Source: Desulfosudis oleivorans (GTDB taxonomy: Bacteria; Desulfobacterota; Desulfobacteria; Desulfobacterales; SURF-7). Taken from it: a stretch of DNA of 64,000 nt. The translations under genes and the position numbers were made by a program. The stretch spans positions 223,629-287,628 of the forward strand of contig DYJD01000002.1 in NCBI GenBank assembly GCA_020723325.1. Direction: 5' to 3'. The notes below the pieces were generated by a model. The model did not search any database. It worked only from the letters and a program-made list of their open reading frames with translations, and was not told the DNA's origin. Below are positions 11,757 through 63,335 of the stretch, piece by piece. Within the stretch, counting starts at the first letter, position 1. Each line of letters opens with the position of its first letter.

Positions 11757-12976
11757 TCCGTATCAATGAAAACTATCTGAAGCTGCAAGCCGCCTACCTT
11801 TTTTCCGACATTGCCAAGCGTGTCGGCCGTTTTCAGGAAACCCATCCGGACCGCAAAATCATCCGCCTGGGCATTGGGGATGTCACCCGGGCTTTGCCCC
11901 AGGCTTGTATTGATGCCTTTCACCAGGCTGTGGACGAAATGGGGGTGGACAGTTCTTTCCGCGGCTATGGCCCGGAGCAGGGCTATCTGTTTTTGCGGGA
12001 AAAAATCGCTGCCGTGGATTTTCAGGCCCGCAACGCCGATATCGCCCCCGAGGAAATCTTCATCAGCGACGGCGCCAAATGTGATACCGGCAATATTCAG
12101 GAAATTTTCGCCGCTGACACCCGCATCGCCATCCCGGACCCGGTCTATCCGGTATACATGGATACCAATGTGATGGCGGGCCGGACCGGTTTTTTTCAAA
12201 ACGGCCGCTATGAAAACGTGATCTACCTGGAAAGCACCCGGGCCAATGATTTTATTCCCGATTTTCCAAAGGTTCCGGTGGACCTGATCTATCTTTGTTT
12301 TCCCAACAACCCCACCGGTGCGGTCATCACCAAGGCCGCCCTGGAAAAATGGGTTGATTATGCCCGGGAAAACAAGGCCGTCATATTGTATGATGCCGCC
12401 TATGAGGCTTTTATCCAGGATGATGAGCTGCCCCGTTCCATCTATGAGATCAAGGGCGCCAAGGAAGTGGCCATCGAGTTCAGAAGCTATTCCAAAACCG
12501 CCGGCTTCACCGGCACCCGCTGCGCCTATACGGTTGTTCCCCAGGCCTGCATGGCTTTTGATGAAAAAGGCAATCGCCATGCCCTGCACAAACTATGGAA
12601 TCGGCGCCACACCACCAAATTCAACGGAGTCTCCTATCCGGTCCAAAGGGCTGCGGAGGCTGTCTACTCCCGGGCGGGACAAGCGCAGGTTAAAGTCCTG
12701 GTGGACTACTACATGGGCAATGCCGCGCTGATCCGCAAGGAAATGACCGACCTCGGCTATGATTGTGTGGGCGGAATCAATTCGCCTTATATATGGATCG
12801 ACACCCGCACAGACTCCTGGCAGTTCTTTGACCGCCTGCTGAACGAAGCCGCCGTGGTTTGCACGCCGGGCGCGGGTTTCGGCGCCTGCGGCCAAGGCTA
12901 CATCCGCATCAGCGCCTTTAACAGCGAGGAGAATGTCCGCGAAGCCATGGACCGCATCAAAACCGCCTTGTCCTAG
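11753..12976 (+). CDS. dapL: LL-diaminopimelate aminotransferase
   Basis: A 407-residue class I/II aminotransferase that converts tetrahydrodipicolinate directly to LL-diaminopimelate using glutamate, a one-step branch of lysine and peptidoglycan precursor synthesis. Visible signatures are [46 protein letters not shown], the PLP-contacting [10 protein letters not shown], and the Schiff-base lysine in [15 protein letters not shown]. Length and motifs match DapL. The start ATG overlaps the previous stop. This route is typical of Desulfobacterota, Chlamydiae and cyanobacteria. Confidence 0.95.
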
Positions 12977-12989
12977 GGCGCGCCCGACC

Positions 12990-14663
12990 ATGGACCTGCG
13001 AACCTGCGTGGTTCCTCCGGGCCGCTTCCGTTACGGTATTCACCGGCCGCGCTATCGTGTCCATAATTTGCGGGAAACGGATTTTACCGCGGTTCTAGGG
13101 ACAGATCCCCAGGGAAAGACCTATTCCAACGAGGCAAATTTTCCGGCCGCCGCCCTGGAAGAAGCCCAGGCCGACATAATTTATGAGATTCCCAATCCTT
13201 TTCCCTTCCGGGGCACGACCTATATTGCCAAAAGCTGGGCCGACCCCAGGGCCGATGATCCTGCAAGCATCCGTCTGCCTGCGGCGCCGGCGATTTCTTT
13301 TGATGAAATCCTGAAAAAATGGCGGTTGGAGGGAAGAGCAACCGGTCTGGAACTGGAGCAGGTGCTGGCCGATCTTCCGGAACCCCTGTTGCTGGCCCTG
13401 GCAGTCACCTCCATTGAGCCCCATGACCTGGTTTGCCTGGCCAGGCTTTGTTGCACCTTTGAATTCAAGAAGGACGGTAAGACCCCCCAAGGCCTGCAAT
13501 ATGAAATATCCGCCAGCGGCAAACCCCGGCCGCGCATCACGAACTTCCCCTTGTTCGAGGCCGTGGCCAACAATCCACATTTGCCGGATGAATATAAAAC
13601 AGCCATGGTGCTCTTCCCCGGCGCCCAGGGCGGCAGTGAAATCATGGGACAATGGCGCCGGCCGGAAAACCGGAGTCATATATTTGAATACCTGCGCCGC
13701 AACAGTTATATCCCCTGGGGCCATTATGCCGCCAACATGGCCCATGATGCCGTGCGTTACAGCATTCAGGATCTGACGGCAACGGATATGCAGGGCCTGC
13801 GGCATCTCTATTATCAGCGTACCTATGTCCGCCTGGCTGAACAGTTGGGCCTGACCCTGCCGCCTGAACGTCGAAGCCTCTCGGAAACGGAATTGGAAGC
13901 CCTGCGGTTGGACATTCAAGCAGCCCTGGCGGCCCACCCGGAATCGCTCCGGCCGACCTTTGACGCCACCCTGTGGGGCTGGAATTTTGGATTTGATTTT
14001 TCCCCCAGCCACTATCGCCTGCATGCCTCGCATCAACAGATCCACCAGCAATTCGCTCTGATTCCCCGGACCGTGCCCATGGAATATAGCGATGGACTTC
14101 GGGCAAAAGCCGGCCCGGGCATGCTGGCCGCCTTTGCCTGCGGCGATCTGGTCCATGAATTTGTCAGGGAGTACCGCCGACAGACCCAACGTAGTTTTTT
14201 CAGCGACTACTTTCAGGCCTTGCGCACCAATCGCAGGATGGATGGCCGCACGGATTGCAAGGGTGAATTGATCATTTACGAAGATGAAAAGGTCATGCTT
14301 TTTGTTCCCAAAGCCCAGACTTCCCAGTGGGAACTCCAGTTGGCTTGTCTAACGCCAGTGGGCAATATTGTCGCGGCTGATCCTGCGCTGAGAAGGTCCT
14401 TGGATCACGGAATACTCACGGCGGTCAGAATCTTGTCCGAGATGGGCGCAAGGATGATAACCACCATCGAGTATTCCAGCCGTTTCTGCCCTGCAAATGA
14501 CGATTTCCATCTGCTCTATGCCTTTCTTCCCAAACTGCCGGAGTCGCCCGGGGCCTTCAGCGAAGCCCAATTGCGCTGGATCAACGGCCATTATCCCGAG
14601 GATTTTGCCGAGGCCTGCCGGCGCTCTTTGGCGCGCTTGGACCTTACGTCGGGGTCGATATAA
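12990..14663 (+). CDS. Uncharacterised protein resembling GalT/HIT nucleotidyltransferases
   Basis: A 557-residue protein with no family I can name firmly. Two regions resemble the HIT superfamily: residues around 350 contain YRLHASHQQIHQQFALIP, and the C-terminal half has EDEKVMLFVPKAQTSQWELQ, DHGILTAVRILSEMG and FHLLYAFLPKLP followed by RWINGHYPEDFAEACRRSL, a pattern like the second half of galactose-1-phosphate uridylyltransferase. Conserved-looking aromatic stretches include GHYAANMAHDAVRY. If correct it would transfer nucleotidyl groups in the cytoplasm. The start ATG at 12990 lies 13 bases after dapL and has a poor ribosome site; an in-frame start inside dapL (12933) is less likely. Confidence 0.5.
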   Translation: MDLRTCVVPPGRFRYGIHRPRYRVHNLRETDFTAVLGTDPQGKTYSNEANFPAAALEEAQADIIYEIPNPFPFRGTTYIAKSWADPRADDPASIRLPAAPAISFDEILKKWRLEGRATGLELEQVLADLPEPLLLALAVTSIEPHDLVCLARLCCTFEFKKDGKTPQGLQYEISASGKPRPRITNFPLFEAVANNPHLPDEYKTAMVLFPGAQGGSEIMGQWRRPENRSHIFEYLRRNSYIPWGHYAANMAHDAVRYSIQDLTATDMQGLRHLYYQRTYVRLAEQLGLTLPPERRSLSETELEALRLDIQAALAAHPESLRPTFDATLWGWNFGFDFSPSHYRLHASHQQIHQQFALIPRTVPMEYSDGLRAKAGPGMLAAFACGDLVHEFVREYRRQTQRSFFSDYFQALRTNRRMDGRTDCKGELIIYEDEKVMLFVPKAQTSQWELQLACLTPVGNIVAADPALRRSLDHGILTAVRILSEMGARMITTIEYSSRFCPANDDFHLLYAFLPKLPESPGAFSEAQLRWINGHYPEDFAEACRRSLARLDLTSGSI

Positions 14664-49445: not shown

Positions 49446-50231
49446 ATGGCCAAACAAACCCGTATCATCGATCTCAGCATCGCCATTGAAGTGGATCTGC
49501 CCAGTGATCCGCCCATGATGATTCCCAAAATCGACTACCTGGATCACGAATCCGGGGCCGAGCAGATGCAGATGTTTTTTCAAGGACTCAAAAAAGAACA
49601 GTTGCCCAAGGGATTGGGCTGGGCTGTGGAATTTGTTTCACTCACCACCCATTCGGGCACCCATCTGGATGCGCCTTACCACTACCATCCCTTCATGGAC
49701 AACGGCCGGCCGGCCTTGACCATAGACCAGATTCCCCTGGAATGGTGCTTCAGCGACGGGGTGGTGCTGGATTTTTCCAAAAAGGAGGACGGCGCGCGCA
49801 TTACCGCCGCGGATGTGGAAAAGGAGCTGGCGCGCATCGGCTATGATCTCAAACCATTGGACATTGTATTGATCCGCACGGATGCGGACAAGGTCTGGGG
49901 CAAGCCCGAATACCTGATCAAAGGCGCGGGCATGACCCGGGAATCCACCCTGTTTTTACTGGATCAGGGCGTGAAGGTAGTGGGCACGGATGCCTGGTCC
50001 TGGGATCGCCCCCTGCCTTTTCTGTCCCAGGAATTTCAGGCCACGGGAGATCCTTCGGTGGTTTGGGAAGCCCATTTTGCCGGCATTGAAAAGGGCTATT
50101 GCCATATGGAAAAACTGGCCAACCTGGATCAGATCCCCCGGCCGTACGGCTTCAAGGTCTCCTGCTTTCCGGTGCGGATCAAATCCGCCTCAGCCGGCTG
50201 GGTGCGGGCTGTGGCTTTGGTGGAGGATTAA
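49446..50231 (+). CDS. Cyclase family protein (kynurenine formamidase-like fold)
   Basis: A 261-residue metal-dependent hydrolase of the cyclase family, with the signature VSLTTHSGTHLDAPYHYHPF (HxGTHxDxPxH) near residue 70 and a later DIVLIRTDADKVWG region. The family opens amide or ester rings (for example formylkynurenine, isatin). The context of two TRAP-type binding proteins downstream suggests a role on an imported compound, but the substrate is unknown. Strong AGGGGGGAG-type site before the ATG. Confidence 0.87.
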   Translation: MAKQTRIIDLSIAIEVDLPSDPPMMIPKIDYLDHESGAEQMQMFFQGLKKEQLPKGLGWAVEFVSLTTHSGTHLDAPYHYHPFMDNGRPALTIDQIPLEWCFSDGVVLDFSKKEDGARITAADVEKELARIGYDLKPLDIVLIRTDADKVWGKPEYLIKGAGMTRESTLFLLDQGVKVVGTDAWSWDRPLPFLSQEFQATGDPSVVWEAHFAGIEKGYCHMEKLANLDQIPRPYGFKVSCFPVRIKSASAGWVRAVALVED

Positions 50232-50367
50232 GGCGCCGGCAAGAAGCTGTTTGCAATTTTGAATGAAAAATATTATGGCGGATGCAGTCAGATGGATAAG
50301 CTTTTTCATGGGCAGGCTTACCCTGAATAATCCTTCAATCCCCCATTTGCTCTAAAGGAGTCGCGTG

Positions 50368-51417
50368 ATGAAACCAAAACTGCTGGGCCTTTTGCTTGCA
50401 ACCCACCTTTGTTTTTTCCTATGTTCCGCCGGCCTTGCCAAGGAAAACGCCAAAAACACCATCAAGATCGCCACCCTGGCGCCCCAGGGTTCCATGTCAG
50501 GTAATTTGCTGAGTGAGCTGAATGAAAAAATAATCGCCGAGACCCAAAATGATGTGGGTTTTAAAATCTATTTCGGCGGGGTCCAGGGGGATGCCCAGGA
50601 TGTGTTGCGCAAGATCAAATTCAAGCAATTGCATGGCGCCATGCTGCCGTCCTATGGTCTGGGGCAAATCGCTTCGGATATCCGTGTCACCGGTCTGCCC
50701 TACATATTCAGAAACTATGAAGAAGTGCGCTATGTCCGGGACAAACTGGAAGATCACATGAACAATGCCTTGAAGGCCAAAGGTTTTGTGGCCCTGGGAT
50801 GGTATGATATCGGGTTTGTCTACAGTTTTTCCAAGGTGCCCATCACTTCCGTGGAGATCGCCCGCCAGCAGAAATTCTGGGCCCCGGAAGGCGACCCCTT
50901 GGCCAAGAAGGTCTATGAAGTCATTGGGATCACGCCCGTATCCCTTTCCATCACGGATGTGCTGACCTCCCTCTCCACCCGCCTGGTCGACGCAGCCAGC
51001 GCTCCGCCTATTGCAGCCGTGGGCTTTCGCTGGTACACAAAATTTCAATACATGACGGAATATCCTTCCACCAATGTTGTGGGCGCCCTGGTGGTGGACA
51101 AGGAAACTTTTGATAAAATTTCGCCGGCGAACCAGGAAAAAGTCTTGGGCCTCAGCCGGGAATATTGCCTCAAGATTCAAGCCGGCCATCAAAAAGAAAA
51201 CGCCAAGAGCATCGATCTGCTGAAAAAATCGGGGATTTCCATTGTCCGCAACCAGGATGACAAGGCCTATCAAAAATTTATCGACGAAACCGCCCAAAAA
51301 ACCATGGATGGTCTAGTGGGGGAGTGTTATTCAAGAGAGCTGCTGGACAAGACCCTGGCATATCTGAAGGAATACCGTGACCTGCATCCGGAAAGCGCAG
51401 TGGCGCGAATTGAGTAG
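50368..51417 (+). CDS. dctP: TRAP transporter solute-binding protein (DctP type)
   Basis: A 349-residue periplasmic binding protein with signal peptide (LGLLLATHLCFFLCSAGLA) and the DctP fold (IKIATLAPQGS near 30, KFKQLHGAML, GLPYIFRNYEEVRYVRDKL, FWAPEGDPLAKKV, VTDVLTSL-like segment and a final YSRELLDKTLAYLKEY). TRAP systems use ion gradients to import carboxylates and need DctQ and DctM membrane partners, none of which is in this window. ATG 50368 follows AAAGGAG. A related gene follows directly. Confidence 0.9.
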   Translation: MKPKLLGLLLATHLCFFLCSAGLAKENAKNTIKIATLAPQGSMSGNLLSELNEKIIAETQNDVGFKIYFGGVQGDAQDVLRKIKFKQLHGAMLPSYGLGQIASDIRVTGLPYIFRNYEEVRYVRDKLEDHMNNALKAKGFVALGWYDIGFVYSFSKVPITSVEIARQQKFWAPEGDPLAKKVYEVIGITPVSLSITDVLTSLSTRLVDAASAPPIAAVGFRWYTKFQYMTEYPSTNVVGALVVDKETFDKISPANQEKVLGLSREYCLKIQAGHQKENAKSIDLLKKSGISIVRNQDDKAYQKFIDETAQKTMDGLVGECYSRELLDKTLAYLKEYRDLHPESAVARIE

Positions 51418-51442
51418 AACAGACTAGAATAGGGAGACCAGC

Positions 51443-52486
51443 ATGAAAAGAATCGTCTTGATCTGTGTTTGCGCTTCTATTGCACTGTTCGGCTTGATCC
51501 AGGCGGCCTGTTCCGCCGAGAAACCCAAACTGACCATTAAACTCGCCACCTTGCTCCCCAAGGATTCAGGCGGGGTCTTTGAGAAACTCAGGGCCGAAGT
51601 CGACCGGGAAACAGGCGGTGAAGTGGATTTCAGGGTATACTATGGCGGAATTCAGGGCGATGAGCATGATGTGCTGAAAAAAATCCAGTACAAGCAACTC
51701 CACGGCGGTTCTTTTACCGGCCATGGTCTGGGTAAGATCGTGCCGTCGGTGCGCGTCACGGAACTCCCCTACCTGTTCAAGAACTACGGCGAAATCACCT
51801 ATGTGCGCAGTCAGCTGGAAGAAACCATGAATCAGCTCTTCTTTCAGGAGGGGTATATCGTCCTCGGCTGGTATGAAACCGGCTTTGCCTATGTTTTTTC
51901 CAAGGTGCCCATTAAAGATGTGGAAACCGCCCGGCAGCAAAAATGGTGGATGTGGGAAGGGGACCCCATGCAAAAAGCAACCTTTGACGCCATGAATATC
52001 AGTCCGGTATCCCTGACCCTCACCGATGTCATGACCTCCCTGTCCACCAAACTCATCGATGCCGCCGCCACCACTCCTTTTGGGGCCGTGGCTTTCCGCT
52101 GGTATACCCGTTTCAGCTTTATGGGCGAATACCCCATTGCCAACGGCATTGTGGCGGTTATCGTCCACCGGGAGATCTGGGATAAAATCCCGGCAGCCAG
52201 CCAGGCAAAGATCTTGAACATTTCAAAAGGGCTGTTTGCCGGCATGGTAAAAGAAAGACGTAGCGCCAATGACAACAGCATTGACGTTTTGAAAAAAGCC
52301 GGAATTTCCATTGTGCCGTATGACATGGAAAGCGAGGCCATGAAATTTGTTCTGGCCGCTTCTCTCAAAGCCAGGGAAAACATGGTGGGCCAGCTTTATT
52401 CCAGGGAATTATTGGACCGGACATTAACCCTTTTGGCCGAGTACCGCAGCAAAAACCCGGGCAGCAATATTGTTAAAATCGAATAA
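51443..52486 (+). CDS. dctP: TRAP transporter solute-binding protein (DctP type), tandem copy
   Basis: A 347-residue homologue of the preceding protein, 25 bases after its stop. Shared landmarks are the ITLDVxTSLSTKLIDAA-type strand, KVPIKDVETARQQKWW (versus KVPITSVEIARQQKFW) and the end YSRELLDRTLTLLAEYR. The signal peptide is IVLICVCASIALFGLIQAACSA. Ligand-pocket residues differ, so the two may bind different acids. The pair looks like a tandem duplication; both lack local DctQM partners and may serve a distant transporter or sensing role. Confidence 0.88.
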   Translation: MKRIVLICVCASIALFGLIQAACSAEKPKLTIKLATLLPKDSGGVFEKLRAEVDRETGGEVDFRVYYGGIQGDEHDVLKKIQYKQLHGGSFTGHGLGKIVPSVRVTELPYLFKNYGEITYVRSQLEETMNQLFFQEGYIVLGWYETGFAYVFSKVPIKDVETARQQKWWMWEGDPMQKATFDAMNISPVSLTLTDVMTSLSTKLIDAAATTPFGAVAFRWYTRFSFMGEYPIANGIVAVIVHREIWDKIPAASQAKILNISKGLFAGMVKERRSANDNSIDVLKKAGISIVPYDMESEAMKFVLAASLKARENMVGQLYSRELLDRTLTLLAEYRSKNPGSNIVKIE

Positions 52487-54589: not shown

Positions 54590-54892
54590 TTAAATAACTA
54601 CCTGGCTAATCGAATTCAATTCTTCGGCTTCGGCTTGCTGGGCAAAATAAAGATCCCATCTTAGCTGAAGATTCAGCCAAAAATCCGGGGAAACCCCAAA
54701 AAATTTGGATAGCCTTAATGCTGTACTAGGGGAAACCCCTCTGCGTCCGTTGATGATCTCATTGATTCTTTGATATGGAACATGAATTGAATCTGCTAAA
54801 TCGCGCTGGCTAAGCCCCATCGGCTTTAAAAATTCCTCAGAAAGCATCTGCCCAGGATGGGTTGGCGCTCGGTGAGTCGGTATTCTTATCAT
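54590..54892 (-). CDS. higA: HigA-family antitoxin (XRE)
   Basis: A 100-residue XRE-type regulator: RIPTHRAPTHPGQMLSEEFLKPMGLSQRDLADSIHVPYQRINEII (helix-turn-helix) and LRLSKFFGVSPDFWLNLQLRWDL, the classical HigA pattern. It neutralises the HigB toxin and represses its own operon. The gene follows higB by 22 bases on the same strand, the typical toxin-first order of higBA. A stop follows within the AT-rich gap before the methyltransferase end. Confidence 0.93.
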   Translation of the reverse strand: MIRIPTHRAPTHPGQMLSEEFLKPMGLSQRDLADSIHVPYQRINEIINGRRGVSPSTALRLSKFFGVSPDFWLNLQLRWDLYFAQQAEAEELNSISQVVI

Positions 54893-54914
54893 GGTTTACC
54901 TCTAAGTAGTTATT

Positions 54915-55208
54915 TTAATGGTAATCTGTAATTTCCACATCAATCGGTCCGGTTTCCATCCACTTGAAACAAACTCTGTACTGATCATTGATGCGAATGC
55001 TATGTTGGCCTTTGCGCTCTCTTTTGAGTTCTTCTAAATGGTTTCCAGGGGGAACTCGAAGTTCATTAAGTGATACAACAGAATCAAGCTGATCAAGTTT
55101 TCGAGAGGCAATATTCCAGATATTTTTGGGACATAACTTCAAAGCAGCTTTTGTGGTTGCTCCGTTAAAAATATCTTCAGTGGCCTGATTTTTAAAGGAT
55201 TGTATCAT
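54915..55208 (-). CDS. higB: HigB-family mRNA interferase toxin
   Basis: A 97-residue RelE-type toxin: IQSFKNQATEDIFNGATTKAA, AALKLCPKNIWNIASRKLDQLDSVVSLNELRVPPGNHLEEL, and the C-terminal GQHSIRINDQYRVCFKWMETGPIDVEITDYH. The RINDQYRVCFKW stretch is characteristic of HigB toxins, which cut mRNA at the ribosome. The pair looks intact and is probably functional. A promoter upstream (about 55210-55330) would also be near the divergent fatty-acid-like operon. Confidence 0.93.
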   Translation of the reverse strand: MIQSFKNQATEDIFNGATTKAALKLCPKNIWNIASRKLDQLDSVVSLNELRVPPGNHLEELKRERKGQHSIRINDQYRVCFKWMETGPIDVEITDYH

Positions 55209-55329
55209 GTGAGCACAATAGCACGGATACCATGCTGTTGCAAATCATCGTTTGTGTTTGATTTAGAGATAATCGACAAATTGAAGAATGATAATAAGAA
55301 AAATTGTAAACCATTAATAATAGATTGGG

Positions 55330-55360
55330 TTGACAATGCGCCCCTTTTTTGTGGTATGGT
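55330..55360 (+). promoter_or_regulatory. Candidate promoter of the fatty-acid-like operon
   Basis: TTGACA at 55330-55335 and an extended -10 (TGG TATGGT, 55352-55360) with a 19-base spacer. A GGGGCCGAGGGACCAGCCCC hairpin follows at 55372-55391, in the leader before the first gene's ATG (55423). The spacing is slightly long, so confidence is moderate. Confidence 0.4.
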
Positions 55361-55422
55361 ATTTATTTAACGGGGCCGAGGGACCAGCCCCATTTTCAAT
55401 AACAGAGAGAAAGCACAAGTTT

Positions 55423-55725
55423 ATGCAAATAATCACCGGCCGTTTTGTATTCGATCCTGAGGATGTCATATATGCGGATCATTTCCCTGGTCATGGGGTG
55501 GTACCAGGCAGTCTAATCGTGCACGCCTTTTTGAAAGCCCTTCACGGCCCGCAAACTATCAGCAAGACAGTGCAAGTGGAAGATTTCCGTTTTAAACACT
55601 TCATTCCACCCGGTGATTACGACTTTGCCATTGAGAACGCCGCGGACAAGACCGGTCCCCAACCATGGTCCTGCCGGCTCATGGACCGGGGCCGGCTCGT
55701 GGCTGCCGGGACCATAGTGTTATGA
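55423..55725 (+). CDS. Hotdog-fold dehydratase-like protein (FabZ/FabA type)
   Basis: A 100-residue hotdog protein. It keeps the FabZ-type DHFPGHGVVPGSLIVHAFLKAL helix start with the active-site His in HFPG, but the usual catalytic Glu (PG-x-L-I-x-E-A) is replaced by His (LIVHAF). FabZ enzymes remove water from 3-hydroxyacyl-ACP and need His and Glu, supplied from different subunits of the dimer. The missing Glu appears in the second hotdog protein of this operon (58747). ATG 55423 is chosen over the longer frame from 55330. Overlaps the SDR gene by four bases. Confidence 0.8.
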   Translation: MQIITGRFVFDPEDVIYADHFPGHGVVPGSLIVHAFLKALHGPQTISKTVQVEDFRFKHFIPPGDYDFAIENAADKTGPQPWSCRLMDRGRLVAAGTIVL

Positions 55726-56465
55726 ATCTGCGCTTTTCCGGAAAACAAGCCTTTATCCTAGGCGGCACCTGCGACCTGGCCCTGGACCTGGCCGAGCGCT
55801 TGATTCGCGAGGACATCATGCCCACCCTCACCCATCGGAATACCCAGGGTGTTGAACGGATCCATCATAGGTTGGCGGCATATCCGGCGCGCTATCAGAC
55901 CTGTTTTCTGGACTTGGAACAGCAGGATTCCTTGCCGAATCTTTGCGGCGCCGGCGCGCCTGATCCGCAATATTTCATCGACCTGGCCCACGGGAATCTG
56001 GAAACACTGGTGGCGGCCGGCGATCATCGGGAGATCAGCGCCTATTTCAATGCCCAGGTGAGCACACGCACCCTGGTGATCCGGGAAATTTGCCGGGCCA
56101 TGCTTAAAAACCACAGCGGCCGCATGGTGTTTATCTCCTCCACCGCGGCTGTCAGCCCGAATCCGGGCCAGGGGTTGTATGCCGCGGCCAAAAACGCCAT
56201 CGAGGCCCTCTATCGTAACATCGGTTTGGAGCTGGGCAGCCGGGGCATAACCACTGTCATCCTGCGACCCGGCTATGTGGATGCCGGCCGCGGGCATCAT
56301 TATCGGCAACGCAAATCCGAGGAGATTCTGAACAAAATACCCATCCGCCGGCTGCTGTCGGTGGATGAGATATCCGCAACCATTTTATTCCTGCTCTCGG
56401 ACAGCGCCAGGGGTTTCAATGCCACGGCCCTGACCCTGGACGGCGGACTGACGGCGGGGAAATGA
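55722..56465 (+). CDS. SDR-family reductase (FabG-like)
   Basis: A 247-residue short-chain dehydrogenase. The catalytic pair appears as FISSTAAVSPNPGQGLYAAAKNAIEAL (Ser, then YAAAK) followed by GIELGS-type IGLELGSRGITTVILRPGYVDA. The cofactor motif is slightly altered (ILGGTCDLALDLAERL rather than TGGxxGIG). In the operon it would reduce a beta-ketoacyl-ACP to the hydroxy form. ATG overlaps the hotdog stop; its stop overlaps the carrier protein start, so translation is coupled. Confidence 0.85.
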   Translation: MNLRFSGKQAFILGGTCDLALDLAERLIREDIMPTLTHRNTQGVERIHHRLAAYPARYQTCFLDLEQQDSLPNLCGAGAPDPQYFIDLAHGNLETLVAAGDHREISAYFNAQVSTRTLVIREICRAMLKNHSGRMVFISSTAAVSPNPGQGLYAAAKNAIEALYRNIGLELGSRGITTVILRPGYVDAGRGHHYRQRKSEEILNKIPIRRLLSVDEISATILFLLSDSARGFNATALTLDGGLTAGK

Positions 56466-56872
56466 AATCCATGCCGGATGTGGATCAGCCTATGACTATT
56501 TTTAATGACGTGCGCGCTATTCTGGTGGACCTGCTGGATGTGGAGCCGGCCGAAATTGGTGCCGGGACATATCTGGTGCGGGACCTGGGCATTGAGTCCA
56601 TCGACTTTCTGGAACTGGCCGTGGCCCTGAATAGCCGGTTCAAGGTCCGCATTGAGGACAATGATATTTTTTTGTTCGGGCTGCGCGCGCAGCTTGCCAA
56701 GGCCGGCCCCAATCCGGCCCCGACCCCGGAAGCCCTGCAGGCAAAATTTCCTTTTCTCTCCCAACAACGCCTGATGGAAATTTTACAGGATCTGGACTAT
56801 GGGCCGGTGGTGAAAGTCGCTGATCTTGTGGCGTACATCCAGTGGCGCAAGGCAATGGAAGCCGCCGCATGA
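56462..56872 (+). CDS. Acyl carrier protein-like domain protein
   Basis: A 136-residue protein with the carrier motif LVRDLGIESIDFLELAVAL: Ser in GIES is the phosphopantetheine site (usually DSL). The ACP core (residues about 10-75) is followed by a longer C-terminal region (KFPFLSQQRLMEILQDLDYGPVVKVADLVAYIQW) that is unusual for a plain ACP and may dock partners. A Sfp-type transferase is encoded at 28042-28833. The start overlaps the SDR stop; the stop overlaps the nitroreductase start. Confidence 0.85.
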   Translation: MKSMPDVDQPMTIFNDVRAILVDLLDVEPAEIGAGTYLVRDLGIESIDFLELAVALNSRFKVRIEDNDIFLFGLRAQLAKAGPNPAPTPEALQAKFPFLSQQRLMEILQDLDYGPVVKVADLVAYIQWRKAMEAAA

Positions 56873-57519
56873 GTCTATCCCCTGTATCGGAATGGTTTGA
56901 TCAATTGGTCCGGGAACGCCGCAGCATTCGCGCTTACCGGCCGGAGGCACCGCCGGCGGATCATATCCAGGCCATGCTGGGCTGTGCCGTCTGGGCGCCG
57001 TCCGCCTCCAACAGCCGTCCGTTTCGTTTTCTGGAACTTGCCTCCCCGGCGATCCGCCGGCATCTGGAGCAGGCCATGATTGCCGGACGGGACCGCCTGC
57101 TCGCCGGGACCGCGGAAACAAAGGCAATGAAAGCCTTGCGCAACCGCATCCGCGTCTATTGGCGGTATGCGGAATTCATGTTCCAGGCGCCGGTCCTGCT
57201 GGCGGCCGGGACCGTCCGCAGCCATACCGCCTTTGCCGAACATTTGACCGCGGCCGGTTTGCGCGAAGAAGGCCCACAGCCGGAAACAGATCGTAACCTG
57301 TCACTGGGCATGGCCTTGATGGGCCTGATGCTGAAAGCCCAAACCCTGGGGCTCGGCACCTGCATTCTTACGGCGCCGCTGATATTCATGGAACCGCCCC
57401 AGGCCCTGCCGGGGCAGCCGGATTTTCAGATTAAATGTTTTGTTACCGCCGGGTTTCCAATTGAAATACCCCGGCCGCCCGCGGCACCGGCCATGGAAAC
57501 CTTTTACCGGACGATTTGA
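56869..57519 (+). CDS. Nitroreductase-family flavoprotein
   Basis: A 216-residue FMN enzyme: RERRSIRAYRPEAPPADHIQAMLG, AVWAPSASNSRPFRFLEL, LSLGMALMGLMLKAQTLGLGTC. The pattern is that of type I nitroreductases, which often act in reduction or dehydrogenation of biosynthetic intermediates. In this operon it could serve as an enoyl reductase or an oxidase that makes conjugated double bonds; that is inference from context, because it replaces the usual FabI/FabK-like enzyme. Coupled by a four-base overlap to the carrier gene. Confidence 0.85.
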   Translation: MSLSPVSEWFDQLVRERRSIRAYRPEAPPADHIQAMLGCAVWAPSASNSRPFRFLELASPAIRRHLEQAMIAGRDRLLAGTAETKAMKALRNRIRVYWRYAEFMFQAPVLLAAGTVRSHTAFAEHLTAAGLREEGPQPETDRNLSLGMALMGLMLKAQTLGLGTCILTAPLIFMEPPQALPGQPDFQIKCFVTAGFPIEIPRPPAAPAMETFYRTI

Positions 57520-57520
57520 C

Positions 57521-58732
57521 ATGGCGCAACGGGTTGTCATTACTGCCGTGGGTATTGTATCCTCCCTGGGCTGGGATATCGCACGGATCATCCAAAATCT
57601 GGAAGCGGGCAAGGTCTGCTTCGCCCGCCCGCCCTTTGAGCCCACGGTGGCGGTTGCGCCGGTGGCGGATTTTGATGCGCGTTTTCACATCGGCCGCTTC
57701 AAGCATCTGCGCTATCTGAACCGCGGCGCCCGGTTCGCCGCGGCCTCCGCCTGCCGGGCCGTGGCGCAGTCGGGCCTGACTCCGGCCAAGCTTGCCGGCG
57801 CCGGCCTTTTTGTCGGCGCCGGACCCCATCTGGATATCGGCACTGAATTTCCGGAAATTCACCAAGGCAATCTGGATTACGAAGGCCTGGCTGCCCTTTG
57901 GATGCTGCGCTTCCTGCCCAACAGCGCCGCCGCCGCCATAGCACAGCTTTGCGGCCTGCGCGGCGAAAACGCCACCATTGCCACCGCCTGCAGTGCCTCA
58001 CTCCAGGCCATCGGGGAAGCCTTCCGCCGCATCAAAGACGGCTATCTGGATGTGGCCCTGGCCGGCGGCGGCGATTCCCGTCTCAACCCCGGCGGCATCC
58101 TGGCTTACAAAAAAGCCGGTGTCCTGTCGGCATTGCCGGGCCCGCCGGAACAGGCAGGACGGCCCTTTGACGAACTTCGCCAAGGATTTGTCCCCGGAGA
58201 AGGCGGCGCTTTCCTGGTGCTGGAATCCCTCACCCATGCCCAAGAGCGGCGGGCGAGTATTTGGGGAGAAGTTTGCGGCTTGGGACTCTCCCTGGACGGT
58301 CTTACCATGACCGCCCCTGACAGCAAAGGAATTCAGGCGGAAAAAGCCGTCCGCAGTGCGCTGCAAGAAGCCGGCTTATCTTCGGAAGAAGTGGATGTCA
58401 TCTCGGCCCACGGCACCGGCACCTATCTGAATGATGCCGTGGAAGCCGACCTGATCCATAGGGTTTTTGCGCCGCGAACTCCGGCGGTCACGGCTTTCAA
58501 ATCCTGGATCGGCCATAGCGCTTCCGCTTGCGGCGCTTTGGAAACCGCGCTGCTGCTGATCAATATGCAGGCGCAACTGCTGCCGGAAATACGAAACCTG
58601 AACCGGCCCTGCCGGTCGGCGGTGAATTTCCTCAATCAAAAGCTTGCGGGGAGTATTCAGACCGCCGTCATACAAAATTTCGGCTTTGGAGGACAAAATT
58701 GCGCCCTGGTGATTCGCCGACATCAAGCTTGA
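57521..58732 (+). CDS. Beta-ketoacyl-ACP synthase (KAS II/FabF-like)
   Basis: A 403-residue thiolase-fold condensing enzyme. The catalytic triad is visible: ATACSASLQ (Cys), SAHGTGTYLNDAVEAD (His) and KSWIGHSASACGAL (His), plus the family end NFGFGGQNCALV. FabF has TACATS where this has TACSAS. It adds C2 units to the growing acyl chain on the carrier protein. A separate chain-length factor is not present. ATG 57521 begins one base after the nitroreductase stop; a frame from 57440 lies inside that gene and is not used. Confidence 0.9.
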   Translation: MAQRVVITAVGIVSSLGWDIARIIQNLEAGKVCFARPPFEPTVAVAPVADFDARFHIGRFKHLRYLNRGARFAAASACRAVAQSGLTPAKLAGAGLFVGAGPHLDIGTEFPEIHQGNLDYEGLAALWMLRFLPNSAAAAIAQLCGLRGENATIATACSASLQAIGEAFRRIKDGYLDVALAGGGDSRLNPGGILAYKKAGVLSALPGPPEQAGRPFDELRQGFVPGEGGAFLVLESLTHAQERRASIWGEVCGLGLSLDGLTMTAPDSKGIQAEKAVRSALQEAGLSSEEVDVISAHGTGTYLNDAVEADLIHRVFAPRTPAVTAFKSWIGHSASACGALETALLLINMQAQLLPEIRNLNRPCRSAVNFLNQKLAGSIQTAVIQNFGFGGQNCALVIRRHQA

Positions 58733-58746
58733 CCATCTGCACCGGC

Positions 58747-59190
58747 ATGGCCCATTTCCGGCTGGTCAATTCCATCCGGGAAGTGGATGCGACCGGCATA
58801 ATGGGTGAAGCCGGGCTGAACCAGGCCCCTCTGTTTACCGGCATAGAGTGCCTGGCCCAACTGGGGGCCTTGCATGTGCGCTATCTGTTGGATTTCGGGC
58901 AGCATGCCTTTCTGCTGAAGATACGACATTGCAGCCTGCCGGCAATGGAGAGCCTGGACGGAAACTTTTTGCTTACCGGCCGGCGCCTGCATGCCAGCGA
59001 CCGGGCCTTCCTCTACCACCTGGAAGGGCGGGACACTGACAGCACCGTCATTTGCGCCGACATGTTGTTCGCCGCCATGGATTATGACCGCCATTTTTCC
59101 CGTGAACGCCTGCAAACCCACTACCGGGAGTTGTTCAGCGGTTTATGCAACAGGCCTGGGGCACCTGTTAAAGGGCTTGTCAAGAGTTAG
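58747..59190 (+). CDS. Hotdog-fold protein with dehydratase-type glutamate
   Basis: A 147-residue hotdog protein: MAHFRLVNSIREVDATGIMGEAGLNQAPLFTGIECLAQLGALHVRYL. It carries the Glu of the FabA/FabZ helix (GIECLAQL), but has no HFPG histidine, the opposite of the protein encoded at 55423. A TTG at 58729, overlapping the KAS stop, could be an alternative start. The end (AAMDYDRHFSRERLQTHYRELFSGL) is helical. It is the last gene of the six-gene set. Function is inferred as a partner dehydratase subunit or a related hotdog enzyme. Confidence 0.65.
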   Translation: MAHFRLVNSIREVDATGIMGEAGLNQAPLFTGIECLAQLGALHVRYLLDFGQHAFLLKIRHCSLPAMESLDGNFLLTGRRLHASDRAFLYHLEGRDTDSTVICADMLFAAMDYDRHFSRERLQTHYRELFSGLCNRPGAPVKGLVKS

Positions 59191-59525
59191 TGGATCATGG
59201 CCTGCACTTCTTGTTCAGTTGGCAGTTCTTTTAAATTTTGATTTGCCATTTTTCAGGATAGAAACATTTTTTTGCCACGAAATCCACGAAAGGCACGAAG
59301 AAAAAACTTAAACTTGGCCGGCGCAGTCGGGGAAATTGCGTGTCCTGCTAAGCGGGTGGTAGAAAAAAATTAAGGTCTTTTGCTGCCAAACGGTATTTCA
59401 AATATTTCAACATCGGCCTTGATCATAGTTTCGGCCATCCTCCATTGTGGGAGCGGCTTCCAGCCGCGATAAGGCCGAAACGATGACCAAGGCCTCAACA
59501 TCCCATAGGTTATACAACAGGGTCG
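59191..59525. other. Intergenic region before the CRISPR array
   Basis: About 335 bases between the fatty-acid-like operon and the array. It holds TTTGCCACGAAATCCACGAA-type junk (59270-59289), the most complete element A copy (59415-59494) and 30 bases of unassigned sequence before the first repeat. No gene is supported. Confidence 0.55.
59415..59494. repeat. Palindromic element A, copy 7 (complete reference copy)
   Basis: Outer arms GGCCTTGATCATAGTTTCGG and CCGAAACGATGACCAAGGCC are complementary apart from a few mismatches. Between them lie TCCATTGTGGGAGCGGCTTC and CAGCCGCGATAA with an inner GCGGCT-TCC-AGCCGC hairpin. Total about 80 bases, giving a nested cruciform. This copy is the best model for the partial ones. 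Confidence 0.85.
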
Positions 59526-61032
59526 GTTTCAATGAAGCCGGAGCAGTTCTGCTCCGGAAATCAAAGGGTGTCTTTATTGCATACAAGAATCTATCGCGCT
59601 TCAATGAGGCCGGAGCAGCTCTGCTCCGGAAATCCCAAAATTCAGTGGGGGCAGTACGGCATCAATATCGTGCTTCAATGAGGCCGGAGCAGTTCTGCTC
59701 CGGAAATCCCGGGTATCAGTCTTGGTGTAAGTGCTGCCAGAATCAGCTTCAATGAGGCCGGAGCAGTTCTGCTCCGGAAATCCGGCAAAACCCTGGAGAT
59801 AGGGATAAAATGATTGCCCTGCTTCAATGAGGCCGGAGCAGTTCTGCTCCGGAAATCCACCCTGATGACACGGACTGTTTTTTGGACGGTTATGCTTCAA
59901 TGAGGCCGGAGCAGTTCTGCTCCGGAAATCTAAATAAGGCGGGGTTTTTTCAACCGCGACAAATATGCTTCAATGAGGCCGGAGCAGTTCTGCTCCGGAA
60001 ATCCTCTTGGGAATTTGTGATTAATGTGGTCAAAAGTGCTGCTTCAATGAGGCCGGAGCAGTTCTGCTCCGGAAATCTTCAAAGTGGTGATGACGATTGA
60101 GTGCCATAAATGTCGCTTCAATGAGGCCGGAGCAGTTCTGCTCCGGAAATCTATCATGCTTAAACCAGAAAGACACAGACCCAACAGCTTCAATGAGGCC
60201 GGAGCAGTTCTGCTCCGGAAATCAAGGCCCACAACCGGCTGAAGTCGCCGAGATGAATTTAGCTTCAATGAGGCCGGAGCAGTTCTGCTCCGGAAATCTG
60301 CCATAACTACCTCCACGAAAACATCAACACAAAAAAGCTTCAATGAGGCCGGAGCAGTTCTGCTCCGGAAATCGGCTTTTCTCTTCAAGTTCCGACCATA
60401 ACTTATCTAGCTTCAATGAGGCCGGAGCAGTTCTGCTCCGGAAATCCGTTCAGCCCAGGGGCGACAATAAACACGCTTAACAGCTTCAATGAGGCCGGAG
60501 CAGTTCTGCTCCGGAAATCGACTCTTGTCCCGCCTGTGGCAGCATCAATTAAACGCTTCAATGAGGCCGGAGCAGTTCTGCTCCGGAAATCCGCATTAAA
60601 TTACGTGTTTAAAAATAAACTCATAGAGCTTCAATGAGGCCGGAGCAGTTCTGCTCCGGAAATCTTGATCAAATTGAGCATCAACCCTGCGTCTATGTTT
60701 TGCTTCAATGAGGCCGGAGCAGTTCTGCTCCGGAAATCGTCAGAATGCCGGCCACCAGCTCGCCCACCACAAAAGGCTTCAATGAGGCCGGAGCAGTTCT
60801 GCTCCGGAAATCCTCACAGGGGGATTTCGCGGTTACACAAGAAAATGGGCTTCAATGAGGCCGGAGCAGTTCTGCTCCGGAAATCCTTAAAAAAGATACG
60901 CTATCAAGCCCCGAAGGCAAAGCTTCAATGAGGCCGGAGCAGTTCTGCTCCGGAAATCCTGGGTCCGACCGCAGCAGCGCTGACAGCGAATTTAAGCTTC
61001 AATGAGGCCGGAGCAGTTCTGCTCCGGAAATC
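59526..61032 (-). CRISPR. CRISPR array, 21 repeats and 20 spacers
   Basis: Direct repeats of 37 bases, seen on this strand as GCTTCAATGAGGCCGG (start), then AGCAGTTCTGCTCCGG and AAATC. Repeat starts are 59526, 59598, 59672, 59746, 59821, 59894, 59967, 60041, 60115, 60187, 60262, 60337, 60410, 60483, 60555, 60628, 60702, 60776, 60849, 60922 and 60996. Spacers are 35-38 bases and all differ by eye. The repeat contains the palindrome CCGGAGCAGTTCTGCTCCGG (9-base stem). Transcribed on the minus strand the repeat would end in ATTGAAGC, a typical crRNA 5' handle. The two leftmost repeats carry substitutions, marking the old end, so the leader is at 61033 and beyond. Confidence 0.99.
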
Positions 61033-61321: not shown

Positions 61322-61609
61322 TCAAACAATCACCGCCTTCCGCTCAATCGGCTCAAAGGCCTTGCCGATAAAATTTACCCGCAACCGGACATTTTCCGCC
61401 GGTCCCAGATCGATGATCAAAACATGATCGTCCTCATGATCAACGAGCGCGGAAAGCTTATCGGTCAGGCGCAACACTTTCTCCCGGCTCAGGCGGCATT
61501 GAAATACGGAAAGTTGCAGCCAATCGCCGTACCCCTTCATGGTTTTATACACCTTACGCCACCGCCGGGGTTCATGGATGTCGTAGCATACCAGGTAAGT
61601 ATGTTCCAT
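61322..61609 (-). CDS. cas2: CRISPR-associated Cas2
   Basis: A 95-residue ferredoxin-like protein: EHTYLVCYDIHEPRRWRKVYKTMKGYGDWLQLSVFQCRLS has the CYDI/Asp and RRW-K pattern of Cas2, and VLIIDLGPAE is its second strand pair. With Cas1 it forms the complex that inserts new spacers. The ATG at 61609 is preferred; a GTG at 61618 overlaps the Cas4-Cas1 stop (GTGA) and would add three residues. It lies between the leader and the cas4-cas1 gene, all on the minus strand. Confidence 0.95.
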   Translation of the reverse strand: MEHTYLVCYDIHEPRRWRKVYKTMKGYGDWLQLSVFQCRLSREKVLRLTDKLSALVDHEDDHVLIIDLGPAENVRLRVNFIGKAFEPIERKAVIV

Positions 61610-61614
61610 CCGGT

Positions 61615-63324
61615 TCACCGCGTAAGGAAATTGGGATAGCGGGGGATTTCCCCGGCCAAAAAACGGACCAGCAGTCGCGCCTGGACTTCAAACAATCGGC
61701 GGTAGCTGATCCGGTATGAAAAAATCGGATGAGTCACCTCCTGGGCCAGGCGCCGTTCAAAGGCGGCGATGAAGCGCTTACGGCCGGCCGGTTTCAGGTT
61801 GCAGCCGGCCGCGCTGTGGATGAAATCATCCGGTTTGATCTCGCCGTTATTGATGGCCATGAGCACGGTGGAATCCGCCACCAAAGGCCGGAACGGTTCC
61901 ATCATATCCAGGGCCAGGCCTGGTCGGCCGTAGCGCAACTGGTGATAAAACCCGCGGTAGGGATCGAGACCGACGGCAGACAGCGTCACGGTCCATTCGC
62001 GGGTGAGCATGGCATAGGCAAAGGACAGCAGCGCGTTTACCGGATCTTTGGGCGGCCGCCGGTTGCGGGATGTGAAGTCAAACCCTTCGGCCCCTTTGCG
62101 GCATGCCGGTGAAACCATACCCGGCAGGTTTTCAAAATAGCGCCGGGCCGCATTGCCTTCCACACCCAGCAGAACGGAAATGGATTCGGCTCTGGCTGCC
62201 TGAGCCGCATCGTTTTTCAAGGCTTGTAATACTTCCGGCGGGGCTTTGTCGGTGTCTTCATCATCCGTCGGTTTCCAATTCCGCCGCAACAAGGTGCGGC
62301 AGTTATGGATTTTGCCCACCACCAGCCAGCGAGCCAGCCGCAAGCAGGTTTGAACGTCGAAACTGGCCTGGTATTGCAGCGTCCGGGTCATGACGTTTTT
62401 ATGGCCCGTGCCCACCGTGTGGCCGATGAACCAGCCGCCGTAGCTCATGAAAGTCACGGGGATTTCCCGGCGGAAGCATTCGTGCAGGGCGGGCGTGCTG
62501 ATACCGGCATGACCGAACAACACTACCTGGGAGGTATCGTTGTAACGGGCCTCGGCCACCCGCTCCCGTTGTTCCTCCACAATGATTTGCTCACCGTCCT
62601 TTTTCAGGTAGCTTCCGGAAGATTGGATATACAGCGGCAACCCCTCCTGGACCTGGGCGAAAATCGGGCGCACACCGGCGGTTGTTTGATTCAGAAAACC
62701 GACTTCGTCTGGCAGGCATATGCCGGCCAGGGAGCAGCGGCCGCATTTGGGGCTGTCCGCCAGCGGCGCCGGCGGTTTGTCCAGATCCGCCAGGCCGCGC
62801 AGGCTGGAAATGGACGCCATGGTCAGGCCGACCAATTCCTCGTCAAACGCGACCTTGACCCGCTCCCGCGACCCGGCAAAATACAGATATCCGTATTCAC
62901 TATTGAAGGCATGTTCCCGCAACAACAATCCCTGGGCGCAGACCTGCACCCGCTCAGGGTCATAGGCCCCGGCCGCCACATGGGGCCGTTTGCCTTTCTT
63001 ATAATCCACCGGCTGCACTCCGTCCGCATCACCCTCCACCAGATCGATTTTCGCGGTAAGTCCCAAGCGCTCGGAAGTCAGATGCACCGAGCGGGCGTGG
63101 ATCTTCTCCATTTCATCCCCTTCGCCGGGCAGCTTTCCCGCGGCCTGATCCACCCGCTTGTGGCGGATAGCCCCTTCCACCGTGTCGGCATTGTGGGCGA
63201 ACTCGCCCTGGACCCACATCAGGTAGGCCAGTCGCGGGCAGTACACATACTCGTTGAGCATGCGGGCGGGAATGATATCCGCTTGGGATGGAGAGCCAAT
63301 CTTGGTTTCATCTTGCATTTTCAT
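61615..63324 (-). CDS. Cas4-Cas1 fusion protein
   Basis: About 569 residues. N-terminal third: Cas4 RecB-type nuclease with iron-sulfur cysteines (EYVYCPRLAYLMWV and KCGRCSLAGICLPD), KIDLVEGDADGVQPVDYKKGK holding metal ligands. C-terminal two thirds: Cas1 integrase with LLGVEGNAARRYFENL (Glu) and FYHQLRYGRPGLALDMMEPFR (His, Asp/Glu), plus FMSYGGWFIGHTVGTGHKNVMTRTLQY. Cas4 trims and selects prespacers by PAM; Cas1 inserts them. This fusion is characteristic of type I-G/I-U loci. ATG 63324 is favoured over an in-frame TTG at 63330. cas2 follows, nearly overlapping. Confidence 0.93.
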   Translation of the reverse strand: MKMQDETKIGSPSQADIIPARMLNEYVYCPRLAYLMWVQGEFAHNADTVEGAIRHKRVDQAAGKLPGEGDEMEKIHARSVHLTSERLGLTAKIDLVEGDADGVQPVDYKKGKRPHVAAGAYDPERVQVCAQGLLLREHAFNSEYGYLYFAGSRERVKVAFDEELVGLTMASISSLRGLADLDKPPAPLADSPKCGRCSLAGICLPDEVGFLNQTTAGVRPIFAQVQEGLPLYIQSSGSYLKKDGEQIIVEEQRERVAEARYNDTSQVVLFGHAGISTPALHECFRREIPVTFMSYGGWFIGHTVGTGHKNVMTRTLQYQASFDVQTCLRLARWLVVGKIHNCRTLLRRNWKPTDDEDTDKAPPEVLQALKNDAAQAARAESISVLLGVEGNAARRYFENLPGMVSPACRKGAEGFDFTSRNRRPPKDPVNALLSFAYAMLTREWTVTLSAVGLDPYRGFYHQLRYGRPGLALDMMEPFRPLVADSTVLMAINNGEIKPDDFIHSAAGCNLKPAGRKRFIAAFERRLAQEVTHPIFSYRISYRRLFEVQARLLVRFLAGEIPRYPNFLTR

Positions 63325-63335
63325 TTCCAATAAAA

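Follow-up and report, generated by a model that had tools for sequence, protein, structure and literature searches.

What does a bacterium make with a fatty-acid-type operon that encodes two hotdog-fold proteins, each with only half of a dehydratase active site? This question was raised by positions 55423–59190 of a 64,000-nucleotide stretch of Desulfosudis oleivorans DNA (GenBank assembly GCA_020723325.1, contig DYJD01000002.1, positions 223,629–287,628 of the forward strand; hereafter the window). Reading of the sequence revealed six intact open reading frames (ORFs) there, all on the + strand, encoding hotdog 1 (HD1), an SDR, an acyl carrier protein (ACP), a nitroreductase, a ketosynthase (KS) and hotdog 2 (HD2). 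Because of its gene neighbourhood, an operator and the literature, we consider it likely that the operon makes pimeloyl-ACP for biotin by a methyl-ester-free route, with a dehydratase whose composite site is shared by HD1 and HD2.

Two half-sites in one operon

The preliminary description, made from the window sequence alone, had taken the six genes as one coupled operon. This was borne out: overlapping stop and start codons join five of the six ORFs, the KS gene starts 1 base past the nitroreductase stop, and the same gene order was found in many genomes, so the operon is not a chance arrangement.

HD1 (55423–55725), a FabZ-like hotdog, has the motif HFPGHGVVPGSLIVHAF with a catalytic-type His20 of the FabZ HFPG kind (codon 55480–55482), and the residue 14 beyond it, at the position of the FabZ Glu, is His34 (codon 55522–55524). 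HD2 (58729–59190), whose TTG start overlaps the KS stop (an alternative ATG lies at 58747), has the motif GIECLAQL with Glu40 (codon 58846–58848), an invariant Arg51 (codon 58879–58881) and no HFP. In neither window hotdog, therefore, does one chain carry the FabZ pattern of an HFP His followed 14 residues later by a Glu, as had been read before.

To see how general this division is, residues were counted in all readable sequences on profile alignments, 61 for HD1 and 81 for HD2. Left out were 10 loci repeating a contig, the HD1-like ORF of locus L171 (its HD2 was kept), L191 and L192, which are canonical FabZ genes from unlinked searches, and L172–L176, which are FabZ-like ORFs of other operons resembling those of fatty acid synthase (FAS). 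The FabZ-type His was present in 61/61 HD1 sequences, while the Glu position was non-acidic in 54 of them (21 His, 11 Gly, 7 Ala, 6 Gln, 4 Ser, 2 Lys and one each of Trp, Tyr and Met) and acidic in the rest (5 Glu, 2 Asp). This column has an entropy of 2.83 bits, and around it the motif His, Phe, Pro and second Gly are invariant, a pattern that would be expected of a residue no longer working. In HD2, Glu40 and Arg51 were each conserved in 81/81 sequences, Gln44 in 80/81 and His49 in 78/81, and a strict HFP occurred in 0/81. All 53 loci in which both proteins could be read kept the His of HD1 together with the Glu of HD2, with an acid of its own in HD1 in 6 of them. The complementary half-sites that the preliminary description had proposed are thus real and conserved and, as judged from these alignments, the division holds across the family. 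In six genomes HD1 did not adjoin HD2 or the contig ended too early; searched by profile, five of them had an HD1-like gene elsewhere, and the sixth yielded only a canonical FabZ.

Two side observations were made on these sequences. At 55495–55497 the window HD1 has a Gly, in the place of the HFPGxP Pro that is present in 58 of 61 relatives. The FAS-like operons at L172–L176, in related genomes, encode FabZ-like ORFs that carry the full site.

Structural models and known dehydratases

Pfam and NCBIfam clearly named the SDR, ACP, nitroreductase and KS. The FabA-like Pfam match of HD1 fell just below threshold (22.3 bits against a cut-off of 23), and HD2 had no match in Pfam or NCBIfam. AlphaFold2 models of HD1 and HD2, built as single chains from 39- and 60-row alignments, were compared with the PDB by VIA-align. 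Both are confident hotdogs (HD1, pLDDT 89.5 and pTM 0.82; HD2, pLDDT 89.4 and pTM 0.84), and in the HD2 model strand 23–34 passes directly into helix 35–53, with no space for an HFPG loop. The top PDB row for HD1 was 6qsr_A (Z 12.0, rmsd 2.3, 94 residues aligned), level with FabZ chains (11.9). HD2 matched FabZ best (Z 14.8, rmsd 1.8, 108 aligned), and its best 6qsr chain was B (Z 12.8, rmsd 3.0, 117 aligned; rank 32). Since the comparison table lists the best chain per entry, HD1 prefers chain A of 6qsr and HD2 chain B. HD2 is tied to the FabZ fold in sequence only by a profile match (best PDB FabZ, E=0.0042) and otherwise by structure.

The 6qsr entry is titled "The Dehydratase Heterocomplex ApeI:P", and ApeI/ApeP of aryl polyene synthesis are described as dehydratases that form a heterodimer and have only one active site (PMC8041823). 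HD1 and HD2 resemble this pair as two unlike hotdogs, each with its own best-fitting chain, and they carry the His on one hotdog and the Glu on the other. They differ from it in pathway and in having no CLF or acyl-ACP synthetase among the six genes, and the likeness need not mean orthology. ApeI and ApeP presumably divide the His and Glu in the same way. The sequence profile of HD1 is closer to FabZ (3.6e-6) than to 6qsr_A (0.021), and therefore the HD1/HD2 split may have arisen independently of ApeI/ApeP. FabZ homodimers share the fold and the HFPG/Glu chemistry with HD1 and HD2, but a FabZ chain carries both His and Glu, whereas two chains share them in the window operon. The mycobacterial HadAB and HadBC are heterodimeric dehydratases as well; however, HadB alone carries both catalytic residues, and theirs is thus not a split site. 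Taken together, there is a good case that the HD1–HD2 dehydratase would be a heterodimer with a split site, like ApeI:ApeP. In the open-access literature searched, no report of a split biotin dehydratase was found.

Linkage to biotin genes and a BirA-type operator

When 59 related genomes were searched with the KS, an operon-type KS (E below 1e-110) was present in 18, the source genome included, and a scan of GTDB contigs added further loci, mostly from Desulfobacterota. The HD2 profile was run on 389 genomes of the order, with matches at E<=0.001 in 53, and on 395 of the phylum, with matches at that level in 57; many of the phylum matches are weak and FabZ-type, and only 6 places in the phylum fell below E=1e-25. 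After removal of repeated contigs, 84 loci with KS or HD2 remained. Of these, 52 hold both genes and extend 3.6 kb or more upstream; all six genes were present in 24 of the 52, 20 lacked only the nitroreductase and 8 lacked others.

When the neighbours were clustered, one ORF was found immediately after HD2 in 53 loci; further ORFs recurred in 36, 25, 23 and 14 loci. We read these neighbours as BioF, BioD, BioB, BioA and BirA. One example of each was run against NCBIfam, where bioA, bioB, bioD and birA scored above cut-off and the BioF-like example (L120) below it (335.9 of 426.45 bits). A bioF gene lay directly behind HD2 in 68 of the 76 loci with room for it. In five of the remaining eight, bioF was in the stretch but outside the distance rule, and no bio gene was found in L130, L160 or the window locus. 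Linkage to bio genes is taken here as a usual trait of this pathway and not as one that defines it.

Upstream of the operon, 86 bases before the HD1 start, we found a palindromic BirA-type operator, TTGTAAACC-N15-GGTTGACAA (55304–55336, + strand), which is one base off the consensus given in PMC545781. The pattern matched once in the window and in none of 100 shuffles, and this is its only exact match in the 7.2-Mb genome (reversed control, 0). The relatives gave 79 loci that span at least 4 kb; 19 of these had a box with no more than one mismatch, against 0/79 for the reversed control.

Biotin ring genes elsewhere in the genome

In the source genome (G000), birA, bioA, bioF, bioD and bioB lie together on another contig (C82; L184, 7811–13051, with birA at 12080–13051), with a 1-mismatch BirA box upstream and no pimelate gene seen beside them. 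The BioF encoded there scores 441.8 bits and so passes the NCBIfam cut-off that the operon-linked example from L120 missed. We infer that the pathway is divided between two places with the same type of operator. As for other pimelate routes, bioW was found in 0 of the 59 relatives and BioC over cut-off in one (G034), and nearly all genomes gave weak methyltransferase matches. Near-full-length BioC-like genes also occur in G020, G031 and G037; in these three and in G034 they lie near bioF, and the 18 genomes with an operon-type KS include none of these four. In the source genome, which is 99.5% complete, neither BioC nor bioW was found over cut-off; BioH, BioG, BioI and BioZ were not searched for.

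A known pathway with a probable detached member

FAS-like genes in the bio operon of Desulfovibrio were predicted to form a new pimeloyl route in 2004 (Rodionov; PMC545781). In a 2023 study of D. vulgaris mutant fitness, ten genes were specifically important without biotin, nine within the DVU2558–DVU2565 cluster, which has two FabZ-like ORFs, plus the nitroreductase DVU1220 (PMC10102598). According to the same study, comparable clusters in Syntrophobacter and Desulfobacter contain a nitroreductase-like gene; the word "heterodimer" is absent from its text. The window resembles the Desulfovibrio-type operon (DVU2558–DVU2565 with DORF42491; PMC545781, PMC10102598) in its homologous set of two FabZ-like proteins, ketoreductase, special ACP and FabF-like KS, which stand together here, in its BirA-type operator and in the apparent lack of bioC and bioW. 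It differs in being detached from bioF/A/B/D and in having the nitroreductase inside the operon, whereas DVU1220 of D. vulgaris is unlinked and is described as a distant relative of the clustered type (PMC10102598). No later biochemistry of the pathway was found in the open-access literature. The pathway and the split dehydratase are both of known kinds, and the window operon is a new, detached member of the former. An NCBIfam lead to cispentacin (PMC10698177) concerned a KS heterodimer and was dropped.

The KS and the SDR are compatible with a working cycle as far as their conserved residues go. The FabF-like KS (57521–58732) keeps Cys157, His297 and His332 in 55/55 sequences each, and the SDR (55722–56465), which resembles 3-oxoacyl-ACP reductases, keeps Ser140, Tyr153 and Lys157 in 57/57 each; these sets differ from those of the hotdogs, the KS set being without 20 later loci from the Desulfovibrionales side. 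Arg187 of the KS is also invariant (55/55), where 12 FabFs have Val, Thr or Leu, and Phe is changed to Tyr at 196 in 55/55 and to Trp at 127 in 52/55. We take positions 196 and 127 to fall where FabF lines its acyl pocket. The nitroreductase-family flavoprotein (56869–57519; PF00881, 92.3 bits) is a candidate enoyl-ACP reductase, with a parallel in PMC10102598. The specialised ACP (56462–56872; PP-binding Pfam match, Ser46) is unusually long, with about 45 additional residues past the third helix region, a feature common to its relatives.

Proposed function and alternatives

In the route that we propose, a dedicated fatty-acid-type cycle would lead to pimeloyl-ACP, the C7 precursor of biotin, with a free terminal carboxylate in place of the BioC–BioH methyl ester. 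The KS would extend malonyl twice on the special ACP, the SDR would reduce the 3-oxo group, HD1 and HD2 together would remove water, and the nitroreductase would probably reduce the enoyl bond; both this order of reactions and the last assignment are what we infer. The dehydratase would be an HD1–HD2 heterodimer with one composite FabZ-type site, to which HD1 contributes His20 and HD2 Glu40. The second site at the interface would be dead, and BirA would repress the operon when biotin is plentiful. More tentatively, and with the odds somewhat against it, the heterodimer may be obligate, and the dead site, Arg51 of HD2 and Arg187 of the KS may let the set carry a free carboxylate that ordinary FAS enzymes reject. 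That either Arg binds the carboxylate is a guess.

Several observations count against this reading. HD1 has both His and Glu in 5 of 61 sequences (L169, L161–L164) and His and Asp in two (L196, L187), and in these loci it might act alone; the divergent HD1-like ORF of L171 (22 bits) also carries a Glu. An operon in which both hotdogs keep both residues, the case that would have spoken against the preliminary half-site idea, was not seen. The structural models cover HD1 and HD2 as single chains, and the heterodimer is a predicted one. The nitroreductase is missing in 20 of the 52 testable loci and so is not universal, 60 of 79 relative loci are without a BirA box at the threshold of 1 mismatch, and the window copy adjoins no bio gene. 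A promoter scan of 55150–55460 found no sigma-70 promoter. In the source genome there are sub-cut-off BioC-like methyltransferases (best 95.2 of 184.95 bits).

The HD1 sequences with both residues, together with the resemblance of HD2 to PaaI/4HBT-type thioesterases (Z 12.8–13.8), would also suit a biotin operon with separate homodimers, in which HD1 is a dehydratase of weak or no activity, HD2 a Glu-using hotdog thioesterase, and housekeeping FabZ dehydrates. We regard this as unlikely: the FabZ match of HD2 is at least as good (14.8), the Gly, Ala, Lys and Trp found at the Glu position of HD1 are unable to serve as acid, free pimelate would require a pimeloyl ligase while bioW is absent from all 59 relatives, and HD1-like and HD2 genes co-occur even when unlinked. 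There is a slim chance that the detached copy was recruited to another short dicarboxylic acyl product and merely retained its old operator. Such a history would agree with the missing bio neighbours and with the better-scoring type of BioF in this genome as against the relative-linked one, but the operator is intact and unique in the genome, and the bioAFDB cluster shows no pimelate gene in a genome with neither bioW nor BioC over cut-off. Slimmer still is the chance of a specialised conjugated or coloured acyl chain of the aryl polyene type, in line with the modified, conjugated or coloured chains first envisaged for this operon. Split dehydratases are indeed known from aryl polyene clusters (PMC8041823; 6qsr), yet the six genes hold a single KS, with its Cys, and neither a KS–CLF pair nor an acyl-ACP synthetase, so membership in such a cluster was rejected; the BirA operator, the bio linkage of relatives and the literature point instead to pimeloyl-ACP for biotin.

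Surroundings of the operon

Just upstream of the operon, on the opposite strand, 54590–55208 holds a HigB-like toxin gene with a helix-turn-helix partner. Farther upstream, 49446–52486 encodes a putative cyclase followed by two successive DctP-type solute-binding proteins. Downstream, 59500–61030 and 61322–63330 hold a CRISPR-type array with a period of about 73 bases and, on the − strand, a Cas4–Cas1 fusion and Cas2.

Significance

If HD1 and HD2 do form a split-site dehydratase, this would account for the retention of two FabZ-like genes and for the importance of both, and it would make single-residue tests possible. It would also place a half-site heterodimer in primary (vitamin) metabolism, such heterodimers being known so far, to our knowledge, only from aryl polyenes. 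In D. oleivorans, the detached copy with its operator tag shows that the pathway can be overlooked if only bio clusters are searched.

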